DNA of 45,310 bases from Candidatus Woesearchaeota archaeon (GTDB taxonomy: Archaea; Nanobdellota; Nanobdellia; Woesearchaeales; GW2011-AR9). The notes beneath the pieces were generated by a model, which saw only the letters and a program-made list of their open reading frames with translations, was not told where the DNA came from and did not search any database. Where the stretch lies: assembly GCA_018657475.1 (NCBI GenBank), contig JABHXC010000028.1, positions 1 to 45,310 of the forward strand, in the 5' to 3' direction. Both the position numbers and the translations under genes were made by a program. Shown here piece by piece: positions 10,131-37,471 of the stretch (positions are counted from its first letter, which is position 1; each line of letters opens with the position of its first letter).

Positions 10131-10475
10131 TTAGATAAGTGATTTTACTTTATTAAGTAAACTCTCAGAAGTAAATGGTTTCTGAATAAAACCGTCAATA
10201 TCTTCCATCCTTACATCTGCTTTTGGAATAATAGTGGCATAAATCATTTTTGCATCGTGATTTATGCGTTCTCTAAGTAATCTTAGAAGATCATATCCAG
10301 ATAAAGTAGGCATTTGAACGTCAATTATGATTAAATCAAAACCATCTTTTACTTTGTCTAAACCATCTGCACCATTATTTGCAGTTACAACACTATAACC
10401 ACCTTTTTCTAAAACATCTTTCATAGTGTCAAGATCTTCCATGTCATCATCAATAATTAATATTTTCTTTGCCAT
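10131..10475 (-). CDS. Stand-alone response-regulator receiver domain protein
   Basis: KKILIIDDDMEDLDTMKDVLEKGGYSVVTANNGADGL...LIIIDVQMPTLSGYDLL...FIQKPF; no output domain. Confidence 0.9.
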   Translation of the reverse strand: MAKKILIIDDDMEDLDTMKDVLEKGGYSVVTANNGADGLDKVKDGFDLIIIDVQMPTLSGYDLLRLLRERINHDAKMIYATIIPKADVRMEDIDGFIQKPFTSESLLNKVKSLI

Positions 10476-10503
10476 TTTTAAACCTGGTTTATTGTTTTTT
10501 TAG

Positions 10504-11886
10504 TTATCTTTTTTTAGTGGTTTTCTTAACTTTTTTCTTTTTATTAATAGTTTTCTTAGCAACATTTTTCTTTCTATTTATTTCTTTAGCTAGCTTCTCG
10601 CCTTTATCATATAACGCTTTTTCCCTATAAGCTTCTTGAACTAGCTTTTTAGATAACTTTCTGAAAAGAGATTTTTCTTTAGGATTGTTGGACCGCCCGT
10701 TTTTCTTAACTTGTTTGGTAATATCATATACTATCCCATAAACTCCCTGAAGCTTACCTGATTTAAACACTGAAGTTTTACGATCCTCAACTGTTCTCAC
10801 ATTTTTATTTTTGTCAATAATCCTATATCTCTGGATTATTGATCCTGGTTTTCTAATTAATTTTGAACCTTGCTTAAAAACTATTTTTTTATCTTTAGGG
10901 TAAATTAAATCTGCCCAACTAACTTTTTTCTTGGAAAAATCTTTTATTGAATAACCACAAACAAGTTCGCTATTAGCTATTATTTCAGCAGACCAATCTT
11001 GTTTTCCAATATAAAACATCCCAGAGGAATTTTTAACAATTAATTTATATTTATCTTCAATTTCTTTTTCCTTTTCTTTAATTGCTTCTCCCAAACCAAT
11101 CTCTTCTTTTGTTGTCCCAATTCTTAAAATGGCTAATTTTAAACTTGCAAGAATACGATCGAGGGAATTAGTTAGACTTTGGATTTCAAAAATATTACTT
11201 CCTTCTAACTGAATGTCTAACTTTCCTTTTGTTATCTCTTCAATACTTCTAGTTAATTTTACAATGGGATCAGAAATACGTTTAGCAGCAAAAATTGAAG
11301 TAAATATTAAAATAGTAGCGAGAATTATTGAGACGATTAAAATCAAGTTTCTAGATAATTCCTGACTTTCTCTTAACTCATCTTTAACAAAATCAGATAA
11401 CTTTAAAGAATTGGAAATCATTGATCGTGAAGTTACTAACATCTTAGAAATTATTCTTTCTTCAATAAGTTCAGATTTTTTAATCTCTTCAAGAGGAGAA
11501 TTTTCTTGAATTAATTTTTTCTTTGCATCGTAGTTTGCAACTAAGTCCGAGAATGAACTTCCAAGAGACATATAATCATTATTTATTGTTATGACAAGTT
11601 CTTTTTCTTCATCATCATCCCAATAACTTTCAGGTGAATTTATAAAGACACCCATGGAGTTATATTTTAAGCGCCATTGCTGCTCCATTCTCTCTTCTTG
11701 AAACAAAAAATATTCAGAAGTAAGAATATCAATTTCTGATACTGACTGCAGAACATTTTCGGTTAAATCAAGTTCTTTCGTTTCCCTGGATATCTCATTA
11801 GAAGTTATCAAAACTACAAGAACAAGCGTTAAAACTAGAAATACTGAAATTCCAGAACTAATGTAAAGTTTGGTTCTTATTTTCAT
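10504..11886 (-). CDS. Membrane sensor: TM-extracellular-TM-HAMP-PAS, no kinase domain, basic Lys-rich tail
   Basis: Two TM segments, HAMP-like 'RISDPIVKLTRSIEEITKGKLDIQLEGSNIFEIQSLTNSLDRI', PAS/PAC-like 'IQRYRIIDKNKNVRTVEDRKTSVFKSGKLQGVYGIVYDITKQ'; ends in a K-rich tail. Confidence 0.8.
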   Translation of the reverse strand: MKIRTKLYISSGISVFLVLTLVLVVLITSNEISRETKELDLTENVLQSVSEIDILTSEYFLFQEERMEQQWRLKYNSMGVFINSPESYWDDDEEKELVITINNDYMSLGSSFSDLVANYDAKKKLIQENSPLEEIKKSELIEERIISKMLVTSRSMISNSLKLSDFVKDELRESQELSRNLILIVSIILATILIFTSIFAAKRISDPIVKLTRSIEEITKGKLDIQLEGSNIFEIQSLTNSLDRILASLKLAILRIGTTKEEIGLGEAIKEKEKEIEDKYKLIVKNSSGMFYIGKQDWSAEIIANSELVCGYSIKDFSKKKVSWADLIYPKDKKIVFKQGSKLIRKPGSIIQRYRIIDKNKNVRTVEDRKTSVFKSGKLQGVYGIVYDITKQVKKNGRSNNPKEKSLFRKLSKKLVQEAYREKALYDKGEKLAKEINRKKNVAKKTINKKKKVKKTTKKR

Positions 11887-11893
11887 CTTTTAA

Positions 11894-12889
11894 TCATCTT
11901 ATTATCCCAATAGCTTCTGGTTTAACTTTTTCTAATGTATTCAAATGAATATAGTCCAAATAATTTGGAACTTCTTTTGCATCCGTTAAATCATTTTCAA
12001 TTGCCCATCTTGCTTCATCTTCTAGAGTTACTAATAAAGATTGGTCTAAAGAAATTTTAAATTTAAAGTCATCCCAGAGAGTAGTTATAATCTCTTGATC
12101 TAAATTTAATCTTTCAGCTACAATTGTTTGTGATTCTTCTTTGTTGTTTTTGATAAAATTAGTTGCTTCATCAACCGCCATAAGAAACTTTTCTATAATT
12201 TCAGGATTGTCTTCTACAAACTTATTCAGTACCATTAAATTAAAAGTTTCAGTGTAAACTTCAGAACTGGGTATTACTAAAGAGTTATCTCCCAATAAAT
12301 TTATTGCATTATACGCATGTGGTTCCCAAATAACAATGGCATCAACGTCCCCATTCTGTAACGCAGATGGTAATTCTGAAGGGATAAAACTTACTGTTTC
12401 CACATCAGATTCTAAAATTTTAGTATAAATTAAAAAAGCTCCTAAGAAAAACTGACTTGTTGAACCATCAACAATTCCTATTTTTTTACCTTTTAGATCT
12501 GCTGCAGAGTTAATTCCAACATCTTTTCTGGTAATTACTTTCACATCCTCATTAGAATCTACAAATGTTGCAAAAATAGAAAAGTCTTGTCTCTTGAAAC
12601 TATTAAACATAATAGGAGTAGGTGCAACTGTCGATATGTCCACACCACCATTTAACATATCGTTGAAACTTGCTTTCCCAGAATCAAATTCTTTAATAGT
12701 TAAATCCAATCCTTGTTCTTGAAAATAACCTTGATCTTCTGCAACCCAGACTGCTGCAGTGAGTAAACTTGTTTCTGCACCTAACGTGACTTTGTCAAAT
12801 TCTACTTGCTCTTGTGAACAACCTACAACTAGTAGACTAAACGATAAAATCAAAATTAAACTAATTATTTTTCTCTCCATCTTAATCAT
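11894..12889 (-). CDS. Substrate-binding lipoprotein, NMT1/SsuA/TauA/NrtA-like
   Basis: Lipobox-like 'LLVVGCSQ'; 'LTAAVWVAEDQGYFQEQGLDLTIKEFDSGKASFNDMLNGGVDISTVAPTPI', 'DLKGKKIGIVDGSTSQFFLGAFL'. Confidence 0.85.
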   Translation of the reverse strand: MIKMERKIISLILILSFSLLVVGCSQEQVEFDKVTLGAETSLLTAAVWVAEDQGYFQEQGLDLTIKEFDSGKASFNDMLNGGVDISTVAPTPIMFNSFKRQDFSIFATFVDSNEDVKVITRKDVGINSAADLKGKKIGIVDGSTSQFFLGAFLIYTKILESDVETVSFIPSELPSALQNGDVDAIVIWEPHAYNAINLLGDNSLVIPSSEVYTETFNLMVLNKFVEDNPEIIEKFLMAVDEATNFIKNNKEESQTIVAERLNLDQEIITTLWDDFKFKISLDQSLLVTLEDEARWAIENDLTDAKEVPNYLDYIHLNTLEKVKPEAIGIIR

Positions 12890-13944
12890 CTTATTATCCC
12901 AATAGCTTCTGGTTTAACTTTTTCTAATGTATTTAAATGAATATAGTCCAAATAATTTGGAACTTCTTTTGCATCTGTCAAGTTATTCTCAACATACCAT
13001 CTTGCTTCATCTTCAAGAGTTAAAAGTAAAGAGTGATCCAGAACAACATTAAAGTTATAATTCGCCCATAGTTCTTCTATATCTTGTTTAGTTCCATTAA
13101 CAGCAACAGCAACAATTTCTATAGACTCTTGTTTATTTTGTTTAACAAATTTTTCTGCTTTAAACAACGCTCTAATTATCTTTTCAAAAACTTCTGGATG
13201 TTCACTAATCAGATCAGTCTTTGATGCTAAATTAAATGTTGCAGAATAGCCATAATCATTTGGTAAAAGATTAGCTTCTTCCCCTAAACTTCTCTGAGCT
13301 TTTATAATGTTTGGTTCCCAAGTAAAAATAACGTCCACTTGTTTACTTTTAATTGCTTCAACCATCTCACCCGGTTTTAAATCAATGAGTTCAACATCAT
13401 CTAAACTTAAACTATTGAAGACAAAAAAAGTTATCATTGAAAAATGAGCAGTGGTTCCTTTCGTTGTAGCTACTATTTTTCCTTTTAAGTCTGCTGGATT
13501 CACAATTCCCGTATCTTTCCTGGTAAGAACTTTTACGTGATCTGCAGAATTAACTATTGTTGTAAAAGTCATAAAATCATTTCTTTCAAAACTTTTAACC
13601 ACAATGTTAGGATCAGAAACAGTTGCAATATCAACCTCATCATCTAACATCGCCTGAAAAGCAAATTTTCCTGCTGAATAACCTTTTATCTCGACATTAA
13701 CACCTTCTTCCAAAAAATAACCATTAGAATCAGCTATATGGATCAAAGCAGGAAGAAGACTTGTAGCACTAATACTAATAGATACATCTTCAAAATCTCT
13801 TTTTTCTTCCGCCTCAGAGACCATAAAAGATACTAAGAAAATTAGGCCCAAGATCACAACAATTCCTATAACTACCAACAATAAATTACTTGATTTTTTA
13901 TTGTTATTATTGTTTTTATTATTGTTATCTATCACTTTTTTCAT
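12886..13944 (-). CDS. Substrate-binding protein, NMT1/SsuA/TauA/NrtA-like, membrane-anchored
   Basis: Paralogue of 11894-12889; one N-terminal TM; 'DLKGKIVATTKGTTAHFSMITFF'; identical C-terminus; 4-bp overlap with the next gene. Confidence 0.85.
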   Translation of the reverse strand: MKKVIDNNNKNNNNNKKSSNLLLVVIGIVVILGLIFLVSFMVSEAEEKRDFEDVSISISATSLLPALIHIADSNGYFLEEGVNVEIKGYSAGKFAFQAMLDDEVDIATVSDPNIVVKSFERNDFMTFTTIVNSADHVKVLTRKDTGIVNPADLKGKIVATTKGTTAHFSMITFFVFNSLSLDDVELIDLKPGEMVEAIKSKQVDVIFTWEPNIIKAQRSLGEEANLLPNDYGYSATFNLASKTDLISEHPEVFEKIIRALFKAEKFVKQNKQESIEIVAVAVNGTKQDIEELWANYNFNVVLDHSLLLTLEDEARWYVENNLTDAKEVPNYLDYIHLNTLEKVKPEAIGIIR

Positions 13945-13982
13945 CTTATTTAACCAAATTTTGTTTTTAATCTTCTATAATA

Positions 13983-14945
13983 TTATTTTCTTCTTTTTGT
14001 TTTTTTCTTTCTATTAATTTGTTTGGCCATTTTTTCTCCTTTATTGCGTAATTTGTTTTCTTCATAAGCTTCATCTAACAATTTTTTAGAAACTTTTAGG
14101 GAGACACTTTTCTCTTTTTTTTCTAACACTGCCAATTTCATTGATTTTATAACCCTATTTAATGAGTGGTTTAATTTGTTGATCTCGTTTATCTTTTCAC
14201 TCCCATTAAGATTCAGATTAAAATTTCCTCGACTGATCTCGTCAACTACATTGGCCATATGATTAATAGGTTTTGAAATTGAACGAGAAGTAAAAAAAGC
14301 AACAACTGCTCCAACTATAAGAATAATTATGAAGAAAATTAGAGCTATTTTTAGATTACTGTCTAAAGATCGATGTATATCTTCAGCAGTATTAGTTATA
14401 CCAATTGTAGAACTTTTAACGATTTCTGTAGAAAATGATCCTCTCTTTGAGAAGTATTTTTCTAATCCTATATTATAAATCTCTTTCTGGTCCCAATATT
14501 CAGCACTTTCTAAAATAGTAACAGCACTTTCTTTTTCACCCTGAGAAACTCTAAGTATGGCTTCTTCTTCCATATCAACTAAAGCCAAATTTGCTGATTC
14601 AATACTTTGAAAAAAAATTTTATCTTCTAAATCTCCTTTTTCAATAGCCTCTTTTACTACTCTGTCCAATTCTGGAACTATTGTGTTATACCTTTGCTTC
14701 CATTTTTCATCACTAGTGAAAGCATAGTTTCTAGCACTCATAGTTAAAACTTCATCATAATACTTAATTAAATCGGCAAGTTTGTCCAACTCTAATTTCT
14801 TTGATAAATCAGAGATATCTTCTTGAATTTGATGTTCTAGTGGATGAGTAGATTTTTCTAAACCAGAGTATGAAATAAACCCAGAGATAAATATTAATAG
14901 TAAGATTAAAGAAAATCCAATATAAAATCGTGTTGAGATCTTCAT
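13983..14945 (-). CDS. Membrane sensor: TM-extracellular helical-TM-HAMP with basic tail, no kinase
   Basis: HAMP-like 'RSISKPINHMANVVDEISRGNFNLNLNGSEKINEINKLNHSLNRVIKSMKLAV'; tail KKLLDEAYEENKLRNKGEKMAKQINRKKKTKRRK. Confidence 0.8.
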   Translation of the reverse strand: MKISTRFYIGFSLILLLIFISGFISYSGLEKSTHPLEHQIQEDISDLSKKLELDKLADLIKYYDEVLTMSARNYAFTSDEKWKQRYNTIVPELDRVVKEAIEKGDLEDKIFFQSIESANLALVDMEEEAILRVSQGEKESAVTILESAEYWDQKEIYNIGLEKYFSKRGSFSTEIVKSSTIGITNTAEDIHRSLDSNLKIALIFFIIILIVGAVVAFFTSRSISKPINHMANVVDEISRGNFNLNLNGSEKINEINKLNHSLNRVIKSMKLAVLEKKEKSVSLKVSKKLLDEAYEENKLRNKGEKMAKQINRKKKTKRRK

Positions 14946-14992
14946 TTTATTGATAACACCTCAACAATTAATCCCATTGTTATCGCCATATT

Positions 14993-15286
14993 CTAATTAT
15001 TGACTCCTTTAATTACTCTAAAAAAGTAGTATGTACCAATTAATAAAATAATTGAACCGATTAATACTAAAATTGGCATGACATTAAATAGAATGTTTTC
15101 GCTTAAAAATCCATATGCCTCTAAAAACTCAGCCAATGAATGTAAAGCAACACTTACTAAAACCCCTGTAGCTAGTAAAACTGCACTGGTGTGAAGACCT
15201 TTTGCACATTTGTTTGCAACAATAAACAAGTACACTGTTGCAGCAATAGCTGAGATCGCAGATAATAAATTTAATATTTCAATCAT
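14993..15286 (-). CDS. Small three-TM membrane protein
   Basis: 97 aa, three hydrophobic segments; ATGA overlap with the upstream 57-aa ORF. Confidence 0.6.
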   Translation of the reverse strand: MIEILNLLSAISAIAATVYLFIVANKCAKGLHTSAVLLATGVLVSVALHSLAEFLEAYGFLSENILFNVMPILVLIGSIILLIGTYYFFRVIKGVNN

Positions 15287-15456
15287 TTTATACGCCTCTT
15301 TTTTTGTTTAATATTTTTTACTCTTTTTCTTTTTTTAACTTGCTTTTTTACAAAACCGTTATTTTTTAACTTATTTTCGTCAACAAGAATTTTTTTTAAT
15401 TTTTTAATCAAACCTTTTTTTAGTAATGATTTGGCATCAACTGGTTTTTTAATCAT
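15283..15456 (-). CDS. 57-aa Lys-rich basic protein (not in ORF track)
   Basis: ATG at 15456: MIKKPVDAKSLLKKGLIKKLKKILVDENKLKNNGFVKKQVKKRKRVKNIKQKKRRIK*, RBS-like AGAGGT upstream, ATGA overlap with 14993-15286. Confidence 0.6.
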   Translation of the reverse strand: MIKKPVDAKSLLKKGLIKKLKKILVDENKLKNNGFVKKQVKKRKRVKNIKQKKRRIK

Positions 15457-15498
15457 CTTGTACCTCTACTTACCACATTCTTTTTTTTTATATAAATG

Positions 15499-17556
15499 TT
15501 ACTTTGTCTTTGATTTTTTTAATTTCCTGGGATGGTCAATATTATTCTTTACAAACCCTGCTTCAATAATCTCTTTACCTGCTACCTTTTTATCTAAACG
15601 GTTATTAGATGATCTTTTCTCAAACAAAGCAAGCACATTATCCCTAAAATCACTTGCTTCTTTAACTGTAAGGATGTGATTTCTTTCTAAGATATTGATG
15701 TCTCCAAGAATATCCTTAGTAGTTATTCCAGGAAGTTTGTTAAGTTGTTTTTCACCCATCGGACCAAGAACTTTAAGATATAAATTTCTAATTTCAGCAG
15801 AAACGTCCTTTCCAAAGAATTTTTCTACAACCAAAATCAGATTTTGTGTTTGATTATTGTTAATGATGCCATGCCCTTGTATCTCTTTAACATAACTTAG
15901 TATGGTATCTTTTGATAGCCCTAATCGTTTTAATATATTAAACTCTTTTTCTCCCATTGGGCCAAGAATTTCTAAGAATAATTTTTTAAATTCTAACTCT
16001 ACATTTTCCTGTGATGAAAATAATAACTTGATTGCTTTAATCTCTTTAACAGGGATTAAAGGGAGGGTGAAGTAAAATGTTGACCCTTTACCCACTTCAG
16101 ATTCTAACCAAAGTTTTCCATTTTGTGCTTCTACAATACCGCGACAAATTGCTAAACCTAATCCAGTTCCACCTTTCTTACGATATATTGTTTGTTCGGC
16201 TTGATAAAATGGTTCAAAAATTCTTCTTTGATCTTCTAGTTTTAAACCTACACCCTGATCAGTCACACTAAATTGGATATAATTTTCTTTCTTTTTAGCA
16301 GTGACCACAACTTGTCCATTGTCTGGACTAAATTTAATTGCATTATTGATTAAATTTCTTAGGACTTGATCAACCCGATCAGGATCAACTTCAATTATTG
16401 GTAAATTATCAATGTGACCAATGATCTTAACTTTTTTCTCTGGCATGAACCCTTCCATAAATTTTAGTAATTGGTTCACTGATTGAGTTAGACTTACTTT
16501 CTTAAAAATAAATTTTAACCTAGCTGCCTCAATCCGGCTTACTTCTAAAAAGTCAACAATAATTTTGTCTAATCTATTAGCGTTTCGAATAACTGTTTGA
16601 ACTGCTTCTTTTTGTTTTTTAGAAATCTTGCCAAAATATTCGCCCTCTAACATTTGTAACTGTGCTTTCATAGGAGTCATTGGACTCCGTAATTCATGAG
16701 AAGTAATACTGATAAATCTGGTTTTTGCACTATCAATTTGTTTTCTTTCTTTTTCCACTTGAGCTAGTGCTTCTGTTGTTTTGTTTAATGCTAATCCTAA
16801 CTCTTCTAACTCATCTCCAGTTTTAACATCAACGCGGGAAGTATAATCGCCTTGTCCAATCTTTTTTGTTGCAAGATACAAATGTTGAATCGGTTTTGAA
16901 ATGGATTTGGAAACAACAAAACCAAACAATAATATGATAACAGTTATTACAAACATTATTAATGAAGTAATATTACCAACAACTTGTTTTCCCTCATTAA
17001 TTTTCACATAAGCAGCTGCAATCTCATTATTTCTTCTTAACATCTCGGGACTATTATCTTCAAGAAAATCAAGAGAAGATTTAATCTTAGGATTAAGTGT
17101 TCCATTAATAAAAGTTACTTCATTGGCAATAATATCTGCTTTTTCTTTGTATTCTAACCATAATTCTTCAGCTTTTAAAACAGTGGGCATGATACTTGGA
17201 ATTGCAGGGGGTAAAATTTTATTGTCAGCTATACCTGGAGCAATTCCTCCATCTTTTAAAGCATAAAAAGAAGTGTGATGTAATTCAATAAATGAGAGAA
17301 GTGGAGCTCTATCCTCTTCGTGTCCCTTAGCAACCATCTCGGAGTAATATCCAATTCTTTGAGAAAGCATCCTGTTTCTTCCAGCAGCATCTATAAGAGC
17401 ACCATCTGATTTTTGTGAAGATTGAAGATTGTAAACTAAAATAACATTAGATAATGTAATAAGAAATATAATGGAAAAGATGAAAATAAACTTTCTATTG
17501 ATCTTATTTGTTACCCACTTTTTCAAACTAAAGTGTTTTTTACTATCTAAGTCCAT
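15499..17556 (-). CDS. Sensor histidine kinase: PilJ/NarX-type N-terminal domain, HAMP, HisKA, HATPase_c, plus repeated C-terminal domain
   Basis: P-box-like 'IDAAGRNRMLSQRIGYYSEMV'; HAMP 'KSISKPIQHLYLATKKIGQGDYTSRVDVKTGDELEELGLALN'; H-box 'SHELRSPM'; N/G boxes 'NLINNAIKFSP', 'GTGLGLAICRGIV'; two C-terminal 'LGPMGEK' repeats. Confidence 0.92.
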   Translation of the reverse strand: MDLDSKKHFSLKKWVTNKINRKFIFIFSIIFLITLSNVILVYNLQSSQKSDGALIDAAGRNRMLSQRIGYYSEMVAKGHEEDRAPLLSFIELHHTSFYALKDGGIAPGIADNKILPPAIPSIMPTVLKAEELWLEYKEKADIIANEVTFINGTLNPKIKSSLDFLEDNSPEMLRRNNEIAAAYVKINEGKQVVGNITSLIMFVITVIILLFGFVVSKSISKPIQHLYLATKKIGQGDYTSRVDVKTGDELEELGLALNKTTEALAQVEKERKQIDSAKTRFISITSHELRSPMTPMKAQLQMLEGEYFGKISKKQKEAVQTVIRNANRLDKIIVDFLEVSRIEAARLKFIFKKVSLTQSVNQLLKFMEGFMPEKKVKIIGHIDNLPIIEVDPDRVDQVLRNLINNAIKFSPDNGQVVVTAKKKENYIQFSVTDQGVGLKLEDQRRIFEPFYQAEQTIYRKKGGTGLGLAICRGIVEAQNGKLWLESEVGKGSTFYFTLPLIPVKEIKAIKLLFSSQENVELEFKKLFLEILGPMGEKEFNILKRLGLSKDTILSYVKEIQGHGIINNNQTQNLILVVEKFFGKDVSAEIRNLYLKVLGPMGEKQLNKLPGITTKDILGDINILERNHILTVKEASDFRDNVLALFEKRSSNNRLDKKVAGKEIIEAGFVKNNIDHPRKLKKSKTK

Positions 17557-17675
17557 CTATCAACCTCTAATGTAAAATGAATGTTTTTTTCTTTTTAAAG
17601 TATTCCTCTAAATAGAATGAAAAAATGGAATAAAAGTAGGATTAAAATATAAAAATAAGATATAGAAAAAATGGT

Positions 17676-18200
17676 TTATTTTATCTCTATTACCGCATCA
17701 ACAAACATTGAAGCTTTCTTGATCAAAGCTTCCTGCTCTTTTATGTTTAAAGCGAGAAAAATTCCTTTAGTCTTACTAGCTTTGACTTTGTTGATTAGGT
17801 TACAAACAAATTTTTCTACTACGTTCGGTTTTCGATATGTTAAAAGATTAGTGATAGAATCAAAAATTAAATAGTCAAAACCGTGACCAATAAACTTTGA
17901 AATCACTATAGATAACTCAGTCAATGCACCTGGAGAGCTTACAAAATAGCAGCTTTCTGTTTGATCTTCTGATTTTTTAATTGTTTTAGAAATTGCGTCA
18001 ATAAAAACCATATTTTCTAACTTAACTTTTTTCTTTTTGAATTGTTCAGTAAGAGCATAAAAAGTTTTGTTTAAAGTGACATAACAAACATTCTTTTTAG
18101 AAAGTTTTTTTGTAACATCTGCTAAAATATCATGGTAGTCGGAACTGGGGAGTACTATTAACACGGTTTTATTTTCTGCTAATGTTTTTTCAATATCCAT
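17676..18200 (-). CDS. Degenerate KaiC/RecA-like protein lacking Walker A
   Basis: 'VLIVLPSSDYHDILADVTKKLSKKNVCYVTLNKTF', 'GHGFDYLIFDSITNLLTYRKPNVVEKFVCNLINKVKASKTKGIFLAL' follows the KaiC-like order (Walker B-like DSI, no GKT). Confidence 0.6.
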   Translation of the reverse strand: MDIEKTLAENKTVLIVLPSSDYHDILADVTKKLSKKNVCYVTLNKTFYALTEQFKKKKVKLENMVFIDAISKTIKKSEDQTESCYFVSSPGALTELSIVISKFIGHGFDYLIFDSITNLLTYRKPNVVEKFVCNLINKVKASKTKGIFLALNIKEQEALIKKASMFVDAVIEIK

Positions 18201-18201
18201 T

Positions 18202-18555
18202 TTATCCCAAGATTTTTTTTACTCTGGCTATAAGAGTTTTAATATCAAATGGTTTTTGAATAAAATCAACTATATTCTTTTGACCAAGTAGTTCTTCTTT
18301 TTCAGCTTCTGAGGTTCTTACAACACTCAAAAAAGAGATTTTGACGTTCTTTATTTTTTTTACAACATCTCTTGTTGGAGTTCCTGGCATCATTATGTCC
18401 ATTAAAATTAGATCAGGTTTAGTCTTTTCTAATTTCTTTAAACAGTCATCACCACTTACTGCAGTAACAACAGAGTAGCCCTCTTTCTTCAGAATCATCT
18501 TAACGGAAGAACGAATATCCTCTTCATCATCCACAACCATTATTGTTTTAGTCAT
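18202..18555 (-). CDS. Stand-alone response-regulator receiver domain protein
   Basis: MTKTIMVVDDEEDIRSSVKMILKKEGYSVVTAVSGDDCL...DLILMDIMMPGTPTRDVV...FIQKPF. Start placed at internal ATG 18555 (preceded by GAGGT) instead of 18633. Confidence 0.9.
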   Translation of the reverse strand: MTKTIMVVDDEEDIRSSVKMILKKEGYSVVTAVSGDDCLKKLEKTKPDLILMDIMMPGTPTRDVVKKIKNVKISFLSVVRTSEAEKEELLGQKNIVDFIQKPFDIKTLIARVKKILG

Positions 18556-18653
18556 AATTATTACCTCTATATTATTATTTGAAGAGTTGCCCACATTTTT
18601 AAACGTTTCGTATACTGATTGTAGGTTGTTCACAGTAGTTTTTTAAAGAAATT

Positions 18654-29886: not shown

Positions 29887-30026
29887 ATGATCTTCTAATT
29901 AACGAACTTTATTAAAATATCTTATGATTCCGCTTACAACTTCCTATCAATGAGAAAGATGAGTTGTAACATCACTCATCAAGACCATAAATATATTTAA
30001 ACGAAAAACAATTTTGTCTTGCAAAA

Positions 30027-30042
30027 ACACCATATGTGCACT
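30027..30042. promoter_or_regulatory. NrdR-box-like site 1 (weak)
   Basis: acaccatatgtgcact; partial match to acaCwAtATaTwGtgt, 31 bp upstream of site 2. Confidence 0.45.
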
Positions 30043-30057
30043 TACTTTTTTTAACAC

Positions 30058-30073
30058 ACACCACATATAGTGT
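30058..30073. promoter_or_regulatory. NrdR-box-like site 2 (strong)
   Basis: acaccacatatagtgt; 14/16 match to the published bacterial consensus acaCwAtATaTwGtgt; immediately upstream of nrdR. Confidence 0.7.
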
Positions 30074-30106
30074 TTTGTCACTTACTAAGAAAAACAGAGG
30101 AAGAAG

Positions 30107-30538
30107 ATGGATTGCCCTTATTGTGCACACAATGATACAAAAGTATTAGAGTCCCGTTTAGTTTCTGAAGGGGTTAGAAGAAGACGTTCTTGTGGAAAAT
30201 GTGAAAATAGATTCACAACATATGAAAAAGCGTTCTTCAACCTCACAGTGTTAAAAAAAGATGGTAGAATGCAACCTTTTGACACTAAAAAGATTTCTGA
30301 AAGTTTGCAACGTTCATGTATCAAAGTTGATGACACAAAGTTAATTGAAATAACAAACTTGATTGAAAGAAAATTATTAGCAAAAAAAATTAACCCAATT
30401 AAGACTAAAGAAATTGGAAAAGTAGTTTTAAGAGAATTGAAAAAAATTGATAAGATGGCTTATTTACGTTTTGCATCTATTCATAAGTCAATTGAAGATC
30501 CTAAGCTCCTGGAAAAAGAGCTACAGACTATTACATAA
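30107..30538 (+). CDS. nrdR: Transcriptional repressor NrdR
   Basis: '[42 protein letters not shown]' zinc ribbon + ATP-cone '[20 protein letters not shown]'. Confidence 0.95.
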
Positions 30539-33500: not shown

Positions 33501-34827
33501 TAACCAAAAATCTTGTCCTGCAGATTTTTTAGCTGCCGCAAAGAACTCTTGGGATAATGCTGTTAGTGAAGGAGAAAAGCATGGTTACAGAAATGCACAA
33601 ACTACTGTTATTGCACCAACAGGAACAATAGGTTTAGTTATGGATTGTGATACAACAGGAGTTGAACCAGATTATGCATTAGTTAAATTCAAAAAATTAG
33701 CTGGAGGAGGATTTTTCAAAATAGTTAATCAGTCTGTCCCAAAAGCATTAAAGAAACTGAATTATCAACATAACCAAATTGATGAGATTCTTGCTTACTG
33801 TTTAGGTAAAGGTACTTTTTCTGGAAGTCCAGCAATTAATAAAGAAACTTTAGCTGCTAAAGGTTTAACAGAAGAACAAATTTCTACAGTTGAAAAAGAT
33901 TTGGGAAGTTCTATGGACATCAAGTACATGTTTAATCAATGGACATTAGGAGAAGAATTTTACAATAAATTAACACAAAACGGGGCTACAGATGTGTTAT
34001 CTGCATTAGGTTTTACTGTTGCAGAAATTGATGAAGCAAATGGATACATTTGTGGAACAATGACGCTTGAAGGGGCACCACACTTACTGAAAGAACATTA
34101 CCCAATATTTGATTGTGCAAATAAATGTGGTAAAATTGGAAAAAGGTACATTCATCCTTATGGGCACATTAAAATGATGGCTGCAACCCAGCCATTTATC
34201 TCTGGAGCGATTAGTAAAACAATTAACATGCCACAAGACTGGACAGTTGAACAAATTAAGCAGGCATATTATGACGCCTGGGCAATGATGGTTAAAGCTG
34301 TTGCTTTGTACAGAGATGGTTGCAAATTAAGTCAACCATTAAACACAACATTAGATGGAGATCCTTTGTTAAAACAGGTTTTGTCTGAAAGAATAGTTAC
34401 AGCTACTGCTTCTAACACAATGGTACATAAAATGAAAGTAGGAAATAAAGAGTTACGAATCACAGGTAAGCAAGAAGGAGTAATGTTAACAAATGTTGCT
34501 GTAACATTACAAGGGTTATCACCTGCTCAAGAAGCAATGATGCAAGCGTTAGTTAACTCAGTTAATTTAAGTTTACAACAAGGTGTTAACCCTGGTTTAA
34601 TTGCTTCTTCATTGAACATGGGAGGACACCCCGTTATAAGTGGACTTCAATCATTCTTAGAAGAGTTTGGAGATGTTAAAGAAAGTTTATCAATGGAAAC
34701 TTCAAAGATATCTTTATCTGGACAAGGGGAGAAGCAAACTTGTAATGCTTGCGGTGCAGCACAATTAAGACAAAACGGAACTTGCATGTTATGCGAGGTG
34801 TGTGGAGAAACAACAGGGTGTAGTTAA
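30553..34827 (+). CDS. nrdJ: Adenosylcobalamin-dependent (class II) ribonucleotide reductase, intein-containing
   Basis: '[12 protein letters not shown]', '[11 protein letters not shown]', '[13 protein letters not shown]', '[23 protein letters not shown]', '[23 protein letters not shown]', '[14 protein letters not shown]', C-terminal [18 protein letters not shown]. Confidence 0.95.
31132..32220 (+). mobile_element. Intein (363 aa) with LAGLIDADG-type endonuclease inside nrdJ
   Basis: Starts at Cys194 ([19 protein letters not shown]), block B-like '[12 protein letters not shown]', dodecapeptides '[12 protein letters not shown]' and '[11 protein letters not shown]', ends '[25 protein letters not shown]'. 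Confidence 0.95.
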
Positions 34828-36881
34828 TGGAAGTAGTAGTTACAAAGATTAAAGAAGTCGTAAAAAGGGACGGCAGAGTTGTAGAATTTCATCCTACAAA
34901 GATAGTTGATGCTATATTTAGGGCAGTACAATCAGTAGGGGGAAGTGACAAAGAAGAAACTAAAAAGATTGCTCAGGAAGTTGTAGAATTATTAGAAATA
35001 CGAGACAAAAAAGATTTGCCAACAGTAGAAGATGTACAAGATTGTGTTGAAAAAGTTCTAATTGAAAAAGGACATGCAAAGACTGCAAAAGCGTTTATTC
35101 TTTTTAGATATAAAAGAAATGAAGAAAGAAAACAGCGCGTGTTTATTTTAGGAAGAGAAAAAGCTAGTGAAAACATGAATTTTTCTAACCAAGCATTAAC
35201 CATTCTTGAAAGGCGTTACTTGATTAAAGATGAACAAGGTAGTCTTTTAGAAACTCCAAAAGGTATGCTGCAAAGAGTTGCACACCATGTTGCTGCAGCT
35301 GATGCTAAATACGGAATTAAAAGAGAGGGGATAAAAAATGCAGAAGAAAGATTTTTTGAAATCATGGCAGATTTACGATTCTTACCAAATTCTCCAACAT
35401 TGATTAATGCAGGAACAGAAGTTCAACAATTAAGTTCTTGTGTTGTGATGCCAATTGAAGACACAATGGAAGGGATCTTTGGAACGTTAAGAGATGCCGC
35501 AATGATTCATCAACAAGGTTCTGGCACAGGATTCAGTTTTTCTAGATTAAGACAAAAAGGTGACAAAGTTGGAACCCATTTAGGAGTTGCTGCTGGGCCA
35601 GTAGCATTCATGCAAGTTTATGATAGAGCATTAGAAGCAATTAAACAAGGTGGTGTTCGTCCTGGAGCAAACATGGCAGTGTTACGAGTTGATCATCCAG
35701 ACATTATTAGGTTTATTGAAGCAAAAAGAAGTCAAAGAGGATTAAAAAATTTTAACATTTCAGTTGGAGTTACTGACAAATTTATGAAAGCTGTACTTGA
35801 AGATAAACAGTACCAATTATTTAACCCTAGATCAGAAAAAACCATTGGTAAATTGCGTGCAAGGGATGTTTTTGCAGTGATAACACAAAATGCTTGGAAA
35901 ACGGGAGATCCAGGACTAGTATTCATTGACGAAATTAACAGAAAACATCCAGGAAAACATCTAGGCATTATTGAAAGTACTAATCAATGTGGGGAAGCAC
36001 CATTATTGCCACATGAAGGTTGTGTACTTGGTTCTATTAATGTTGCAAGACATATTAAAGAAGATTCTATTGATTGGGAATTGCTGAAAAAAACTGTACA
36101 GGCAGCCGTTCACTTTTTAGACAATGTTATTGATCAAAATAAATACGCTAAAAAAGAAATTAGAGAAATGACTAAAAGAACTAGGAAGTTTGGCCTAGGT
36201 GTTATGGGATTGGCTGATTTGTTTTGTTGTTTAAGGATTAAATATGATTCAGAAGAAGGTTTACAATTTGCAGATAAGTTAATGAGTTTCATTAAAGAAT
36301 CAGTTTACTCAACTTCACAAGCATTAGCTGAACAAAGAGGGGTTTTTCCAGCATGGGAAGGATCATCTCATCATCAAGCTGGACAAAAAATGCGTAATCT
36401 TTGTTGTTTATCAATATCTCCCACCGGAACAATTAGTATTCTAGCCGATACATCTTCTGGTTGTGAACCATTATTTGCACTTGCATATCAAAGAAGTGTT
36501 TTAGGAGATACAGAATTAGTTCATGTAAATAAAGTGTTTGAAAAAGTTGCTAAAGAAAAAGGGTTTTATTCTCCAGAATTAATAAGAAAAATGGCAAGAG
36601 TTGGTGGGGTCCAAGGTTTTACAGATGTTCCAAAATCAGTTAGGGAGATATTTGTAACTTCACAAGATATTTTGCCAGAATGGCATGTTAAAATGCAAGC
36701 AACATTACAAAAATATGTAGATAATTCCATATCAAAAACAATCAATTTTCCAAGAAGTGCTTCAATTAGTGATGTAGAACAAGCTTATGTTCTTGCTTGG
36801 AAAATGAAATGTAAAGGAATTACTATCTATAGAGATGGAAGTTATGAAGATCAAGTTTTAACTATTGGTGATGGCGCATGA
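34827..36881 (+). CDS. nrdJ: Second class II ribonucleotide reductase, with N-terminal ATP-cone
   Basis: ATP-cone 'VVKRDGRVVEFHPTKIVDAIFRAV'; 'LSSCVVMPIEDTMEGIFGTLRDAAMIHQQGSGTGFSFSRLR'; 'STNQCGEAPLLPHEGCVLGSIN'; 'SPTGTISILADTSSGCEPLF'. Confidence 0.93.
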   Translation: MEVVVTKIKEVVKRDGRVVEFHPTKIVDAIFRAVQSVGGSDKEETKKIAQEVVELLEIRDKKDLPTVEDVQDCVEKVLIEKGHAKTAKAFILFRYKRNEERKQRVFILGREKASENMNFSNQALTILERRYLIKDEQGSLLETPKGMLQRVAHHVAAADAKYGIKREGIKNAEERFFEIMADLRFLPNSPTLINAGTEVQQLSSCVVMPIEDTMEGIFGTLRDAAMIHQQGSGTGFSFSRLRQKGDKVGTHLGVAAGPVAFMQVYDRALEAIKQGGVRPGANMAVLRVDHPDIIRFIEAKRSQRGLKNFNISVGVTDKFMKAVLEDKQYQLFNPRSEKTIGKLRARDVFAVITQNAWKTGDPGLVFIDEINRKHPGKHLGIIESTNQCGEAPLLPHEGCVLGSINVARHIKEDSIDWELLKKTVQAAVHFLDNVIDQNKYAKKEIREMTKRTRKFGLGVMGLADLFCCLRIKYDSEEGLQFADKLMSFIKESVYSTSQALAEQRGVFPAWEGSSHHQAGQKMRNLCCLSISPTGTISILADTSSGCEPLFALAYQRSVLGDTELVHVNKVFEKVAKEKGFYSPELIRKMARVGGVQGFTDVPKSVREIFVTSQDILPEWHVKMQATLQKYVDNSISKTINFPRSASISDVEQAYVLAWKMKCKGITIYRDGSYEDQVLTIGDGA

Positions 36882-37471
36882 AAGTTTATACAAAAGTTGG
36901 TGATAAAGGTAAGACTGCATTTTTTGGATGTGGAATGATACAAAAAGATGATCCACGTATAGAAGCCGTTGGTGCACTAGATGAAGTTAATTCAGTTATT
37001 GGAGTTACACTTTGTTTCATTGAAAATGAGGAATTACGTCGTGTTTTACAAAAAGTACAAAACGATTTATTTCAAGTTGGAGCTGATTTAGCAGGTAGTG
37101 CATTGGAAGCTGATGCACTGCCAAGAATTAGAGAAAGTCATGTTATTGAATTGGAGAAAGCTATTGATAATATTCACGAAAAAGTTGGTGGACAACAAGC
37201 TTTCATTTTGCCAGGAGGTACTAGTGCTAGCTCATTTTTACATCTATGTAGATGTATCACCAGAAGAGCTGAAAGAAGCCTGATTGTTGCCAGTAAAGTT
37301 ATTTCATTGAACCCAGAAATGTTACGTTATGTTAACAGACTGAGTGATTATTTGTTCATGTTAGCTAGAGAAGCAAATAATGAAGTTGACGTTAAAGAAC
37401 AACAACCAATCTATAAATATTTTGATGTAGATAAATCTAAAGATCACAGCACAACAAAGCATATAAACTGA
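36878..37471 (+). CDS. pduO: Cob(I)alamin adenosyltransferase (PduO type)
   Basis: 'MKVYTKVGDKGKTAFFG', 'GALDEVNSVIG', 'LPGGTSASSFLHLCRCITRRAERSL', 'RYVNRLSDYLFMLAREAN'; ATGA overlap with the RNR. Confidence 0.93.
   Translation: MKVYTKVGDKGKTAFFGCGMIQKDDPRIEAVGALDEVNSVIGVTLCFIENEELRRVLQKVQNDLFQVGADLAGSALEADALPRIRESHVIELEKAIDNIHEKVGGQQAFILPGGTSASSFLHLCRCITRRAERSLIVASKVISLNPEMLRYVNRLSDYLFMLAREANNEVDVKEQQPIYKYFDVDKSKDHSTTKHIN

Follow-up and report, generated by a model that had tools for sequence, protein, structure and literature searches.

An archaeal NrdR and its paired operator very probably form an autorepressed ribonucleotide reductase regulon in Woesearchaeota

An operon for class II ribonucleotide reductases (RNRs) in a Woesearchaeota archaeon very probably represents an authentic archaeal NrdR regulon, headed by the gene of the repressor and preceded by a paired operator through which NrdR would repress its own transcription. 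The protein family, the operon, the conservation of the operator among relatives, its co-occurrence with NrdR and its linkage to RNR genes are established here. NrdR has been described as mainly bacterial and rare in archaea in papers from 2022 and 2025 (PMC9110341, PMC12176259), and the NrdR-box as absent in archaea in a 2014 review (PMC4009431); relative to these papers, two points are new: that NrdR is nearly ubiquitous in an archaeal class, and that archaea have the boxes. Within the open-licence literature we found no paper connecting NrdR with DPANN or Nanoarchaeota, and an earlier report may exist elsewhere.

The window, by which we mean the whole stretch of 45,310 nucleotides that was analysed, is one contig of an archaeal (Woesearchaeota) genome of 1.06 Mb in 81 contigs, and it also encodes a CDP-archaeol synthase (PF01864) and, as read by eye, apparently a family-B DNA polymerase. 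The operon has the order nrdR-nrdJ1(intein)-nrdJ2-cobalamin adenosyltransferase, with nrdR as its first gene, and comprises, together with its putative promoter and operator, the following features:

29990..30001, + strand: TATA-like element aatatatttaaa, with TTTAAA at 29996-30001 beginning 31 bp before box 1
30027..30042, + strand: candidate NrdR box 1, acaccatatgtgcact, 10/16 against the bacterial consensus acaCwAtATaTwGtgt
30058..30073, + strand: candidate NrdR box 2, acaccacatatagtgt, a full dyad, 14/16 against the same consensus
30107..30538, + strand: nrdR, Zn-ribbon and ATP-cone transcriptional repressor of 143 aa
30553..34827, + strand: nrdJ1, class II (adenosylcobalamin) ribonucleotide reductase with intein, starting 14 bp past nrdR
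34827..36881, + strand: nrdJ2, second class II reductase with N-terminal ATP-cone, overlapping nrdJ1 by one base
36878..37471, + strand: PduO-type cob(I)alamin adenosyltransferase (TIGR00636, 1.1e-53), overlapping nrdJ2, the last clear operon member

Pfam assigns Ribonuc_red_lgC (7.9e-122), Ribonuc_red_2_N, LAGLIDADG_3 and Intein_splicing to nrdJ1, and an ATP-cone (2.5e-22) and Ribonuc_red_lgC (6e-131) to nrdJ2. The LAGLIDADG intein of nrdJ1 covers approximately residues 195-554, and the same gene is intein-free in several relatives. Of 12 related loci examined, 9 have the adenosyltransferase 3' of nrdJ2, including two (L237, L245) in which the nrdJ2-adenosyltransferase pair is located 2-5 kb away from nrdJ1. 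No class III RNR (NRDD) was detected in the source genome as a second target. Elsewhere in the window, positions 10131-18633 hold, by eye, a signalling cluster that is sizeable for a 1-Mb archaeon: a histidine kinase and response regulators are accompanied by HAMP-type sensor proteins and by two periplasmic-binding-like lipoproteins that resemble each other.

The product of the first gene had been called a clear NrdR in the original prediction, and its profile and structure matches uphold this: Pfam recognizes Zn_ribbon_NrdR (PF22811, 1.3e-17) and an ATP-cone (PF03477, 8.8e-17), the TIGR00244 score of 130 bits exceeds the curated cut-off of 124.65, and NrdR chains in the PDB match at 4e-26. 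The same cut-off is passed by 12 of the 25 NrdRs of the GTDB family to which the genome belongs, the remaining ones scoring 111-124 bits. The two CxxC motifs of the N-terminal Zn-ribbon (C3, C6, C31, C34) are invariant in all 25. Among the DNA-contact residues, R17, the RRRR motif and R37 are identical in the window protein and D15 is replaced by E; in the ATP-cone, V48, K50, F58, K62 and F124 are retained, with E56 changed to Q, V127 to I and Y128 to H. Residue 15 has been implicated in sequence specificity; sampled bacteria have D15, and the conservative exchange to E15 occurs in 23/25 family NrdRs and in 13/95 other archaeal ones. Histidine takes the place of Y128, a residue that flips to read the 2'-OH of ATP, in 13 of the 25 family members, a substitution that may alter the nucleotide logic. 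By every sequence criterion tested the window protein is NrdR, and box 1 of its operator is, by its letters, a half box.

As originally proposed, a box with 14/16 consensus letters and a weaker one (10/16) follow a TATA-like element at a start-to-start distance of exactly 31 bp; the interval first given for this arrangement, 30020-30538, encloses both boxes and nrdR, with the TATA-like element lying outside it. Box 2 carries both C4 and G13, and box 1 carries C4 and lacks the right-hand G13. On its own, box 2 does not stand out, the 45 kb containing 2 matches where 1.27 are expected when 3 mismatches are allowed, and single-box searches of the window and of the whole genome returned about the expected number of matches and were uninformative. 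As a pair scored at a spacing of 30-32 bp, the two boxes (24/32) are the best in the window, 2 of 60 shuffled windows contain a pair as good, and within the 250 bp before nrdR they outscore all 100 shuffles. Judged from the window alone, the pair is thus modestly beyond chance, and the boxes are secure only because of comparative evidence.

For this comparison, nrdR loci were taken from the GTDB family of the source genome (25 genomes) and from about 95 further genomes of its order and class, and their upstream 200 bp were scored with the bacterial consensus, which is independent of these genomes. Pairs of at least 22/32 at 30-32 bp precede nrdR in 20/25 family loci, compared to approximately 0.6% of shuffles, and in 54/96 other loci, compared to approximately 1.1%. 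The boxes are conserved in related operons, the opposite of the outcome that had been named beforehand as speaking against the prediction. In the spacing spectrum, pairs concentrate sharply at 30-34, most of all at 32. Downstream, nrdR is immediately followed by an RNR gene in all 24 family loci with sequence and in 59/92 others, the other 33 having no RNR detected within the stretch fetched 3' of nrdR. Several loci of the other groups have no box pair before nrdR, and many such genomes have one at an RNR gene. Conserved dyads at this position could also act as RNA, in the form of a leader hairpin, an attenuator or a cobalamin riboswitch in the nrdR-nrdJ transcript: given the predicted start, both boxes fall in the 5' leader, box 2 is a palindrome with a T-rich stretch after it, and cobalamin riboswitches can control bacterial nrdJ genes. 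Rfam, however, matches nothing in the leader at E <= 1, the stability of the leader does not exceed that of shuffles (z = -0.97), RNAalifold yields no consensus structure in 22 loci, and conservation tracks the NrdR-box letters rather than pairing, as box presence tracks NrdR. We consider an RNA element highly unlikely.

The link between boxes and repressor can be read from relatives that have no repressor. Full NrdR is absent from 24/49 family genomes, and RNR matches are present in 46/49 overall. Upstream of RNR genes in the NrdR-less family loci, pairs scoring at least 22 with the bacterial consensus were found in 0/15, although TATA elements persist in several of these 15; the association of box pairs with NrdR is significant (Fisher p = 1.4e-6, with the family count taken conservatively as 19/25 against 0/15). 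A profile of the family operator built from sequence only (R1) matches 19/49 family genomes at E <= 2.5e-5, in every case at the nrdR promoter, and gives no match at this threshold in the NrdR-less family genomes. A second profile of the same kind (R2), built from 29 loci of other families, was run over 38 whole NrdR-bearing genomes chosen largely for having nrdR without boxes or away from RNR. At E <= 0.01 it found 27 loci, all of them directly upstream of nrdR (4) or of an RNR gene (23; 21 assigned by blastp, one by Pfam and one by reading the ATP-cone motif), and gave no match in 11 of the 38 genomes; over 25 NrdR-less genomes it produced just two marginal places (E > 0.006). Only two of the 27 loci (G211 and G144) belonged to the R2 training set; because both profiles were built from related loci, matches in their training genomes are not independent. 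A motif scan of related nrd promoters, suggested together with the original prediction, finds the box pairs recurring, in the case of R2 with 27/27 loci before nrdR or RNR, and the predicted pairs mark RNR promoters across the archaeal group (order and class). That a different archaeal regulator binds these boxes, with NrdR an incidental neighbour, appears extremely unlikely. E15 and H128 do show drift in the protein, and binding by NrdR is deduced from sequence, but the letters and spacing of the boxes equal those of the bacterial NrdR operator, R17 and the RRRR motif hardly vary, and where nrdR is missing the boxes are missing too, despite the persistence of RNR genes and TATA elements.

NrdR itself is widespread in these archaea. 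In the order, 274/353 genomes have an NrdR-family match, and in the class sample 285/370 do, a few of these matches being partial and comprising the ATP-cone only; the curated cut-off is passed in 238/353 and 264/370, respectively, and 206 of the 258 genera in the class sample have NrdR. The earlier view of a horizontally acquired regulator, understood as a local novelty, does not survive these counts. A recent transfer of nrdR and bacterial boxes that made this lineage unusual would agree with the description of NrdR as mainly bacterial (PMC9110341, PMC12176259), with the divergence of the family NrdRs, which form a clade of their own (support 100/99), and with the lack of the gene in half of the family. 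It is made very unlikely by the presence of NrdR in most genera of the class sample, by boxes that sit at archaeal TATA promoters in a fixed geometry, and by the nearest relatives of the window NrdR, which all belong to the same family (67% identity within the family, compared to approximately 41% for the best plasmid-borne bacterial matches). The phylogeny that had been called for has too few columns to settle the direction of transfer, or whether the class received NrdR from bacteria a single time; one class-wide clade, at a cost of 6 log units, is not rejected (AU p = 0.36). Judged by its distribution, NrdR is an established regulator of this archaeal class rather than a local acquisition; transfer from bacteria is possible but would be old.

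The placement of the boxes suggests how such a regulator could work on an archaeal promoter. In the family, 22/22 loci have a TATA-like hexamer that starts 29-38 bp ahead of box 1, mostly at 31-35 bp; in other members of the order this distance is mostly 16-28 bp. Across the order, these distances cluster at approximately 16-17 bp (16 bp in L093, L101 and L066), 24-27 bp (24-25 bp in L123, L059 and L104) and 31-35 bp (L050, L138 and the window family), perhaps a sign that TBP and NrdR sites are helically phased. Archaeal promoters have a usual distance from TATA element to start, and transcription is therefore predicted to begin near 30024, approximately 28 bp past the start of TTTAAA, which would place box 1 over roughly +4 to +19 and box 2 over roughly +35 to +50. 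For DNA binding, nucleotide control and repression, we infer the following course of events: the ATP-cone of NrdR would sense the balance of ATP and dATP and, when dATP is plentiful, a tetramer would bind both boxes, three helical turns apart, and bend the DNA across them, most simply obstructing the loading or early escape of RNA polymerase at a TBP/TFB promoter. NrdR would thereby repress its own operon, nrdR-nrdJ1-nrdJ2-adenosyltransferase, tuning dNTP synthesis jointly with the supply of the adenosylcobalamin cofactor. Autorepression by blocking of the start region, as first proposed, fits the position of the boxes just past the predicted start.

The operator of the family has a form of its own. 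Over 20 family loci, box 2 is complete, with C2, A6, T11, G13 and G15 invariant; in box 1, the promoter-side positions 1-10 are conserved and positions 14-16 hold almost no information. The family has lost the inner half of box 1, which makes its predicted operator asymmetric. The D15 members of the family (L009, L012) retain G13 in both boxes, and a coupling of E15 with the half-box operator is suggestive, and no more than that because D15/E15 is one split in the tree. Several relatives carry the repressor as part of a larger protein. In four genomes of the order or class, a complete NrdR (Zn-ribbon and ATP-cone) is fused in frame to a class III reductase (second ATP-cone and NRDD), possibly forming a bifunctional repressor-enzyme, and a further locus has NrdR fused to a different RNR:

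L098:464-2938, - strand: NrdR-class III fusion with upstream box pair (23-24)
L251:270-2594: NrdR-class III fusion
L252:264-2870, - strand: NrdR-class III fusion with upstream box pair (23-24)
L253:347-2728: NrdR-class III fusion with upstream box pair (23-24)
L254:323-4369, + strand: in-frame fusion of NrdR with an intein-bearing RNR (Ribonuc_red_lgC barrel), preceded by the box pair ATACCATATATAGTAT / ATACAACATGTTGTAT, 31 bp apart

A wider evolutionary reading, which we offer tentatively and rate slightly below even, is that NrdR and its boxes are the ancestral, near-universal RNR control of this archaeal class on TBP/TFB promoters, that the tetramer of the family evolved for a one-and-a-half-box operator (E15), possibly with altered ATP/dATP logic (H128), and that repressor and reductase became fused in some relatives.

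With NrdR in about three quarters of the sampled class genomes and matching operators at RNR promoters, a bacterial-type dNTP sensor appears to be a standard part of these small-genome archaea. The system offers a testable case of a bacterial-type repressor acting on archaeal transcription machinery, and its natural variants (E15, H128, half-box operators and repressor-enzyme fusions) should be useful for dissecting DNA recognition and nucleotide reading by NrdR. Among known archaeal systems, the haloarchaeal nrdR-nrdBA operons (Natronomonas, Halorubrum and others; PMC3019208) are similar in that NrdR heads an archaeal RNR operon and candidate dyads lie approximately 31 bp apart shortly upstream of the gene, resembling the spacing in the window; they differ in serving a class I RNR, in being often megaplasmid-borne and in their origin from bacteria, as reported in PMC3019208. 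In the haloarchaeal loci L196-L200, conserved paired dyads with diverged letters (CCACCANATNTTGCGG and CCACATATGGGG-like) are located approximately 80-30 bp before nrdR, and haloarchaeal NrdR lacks R17 in our alignment; together, dyads and missing R17 make a divergent specificity possible.

Bacterial NrdR, as known from Streptomyces coelicolor nrdRJ and Escherichia coli nrdHIEF (PMC9110341, PMC12176259), shares with the archaeal protein the Zn-ribbon and ATP-cone architecture and paired 16-bp boxes approximately three turns apart. In both domains, the boxes lie before RNR operons and often before nrdR, and R17, RRRR, K50 and K62 recur; S. coelicolor likewise has an nrdR-nrdJ (class II) operon. 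In the bacterial structure, one tetramer occupies two boxes, and the DNA is sharply kinked when the protein is loaded with ATP and dATP (PMC9110341). The bacterial literature places the boxes three turns apart and accepts spacers of 14-17 bp; for Streptococcus and Listeria NrdR, helical phase rather than exact distance governs binding, with the same spacers accepted, compared to 14-16 bp here, and some of their operators use 25-26 bp spacers, none of which are archaeal (PMC12051234). What sets the archaeal system apart from bacterial NrdR is the TATA promoter with boxes just past the predicted start, in the window family also E15 for D15, often H for Y128 and the lost inner half of box 1, and in the window operon the joint presence of two class II reductases and an adenosyltransferase.
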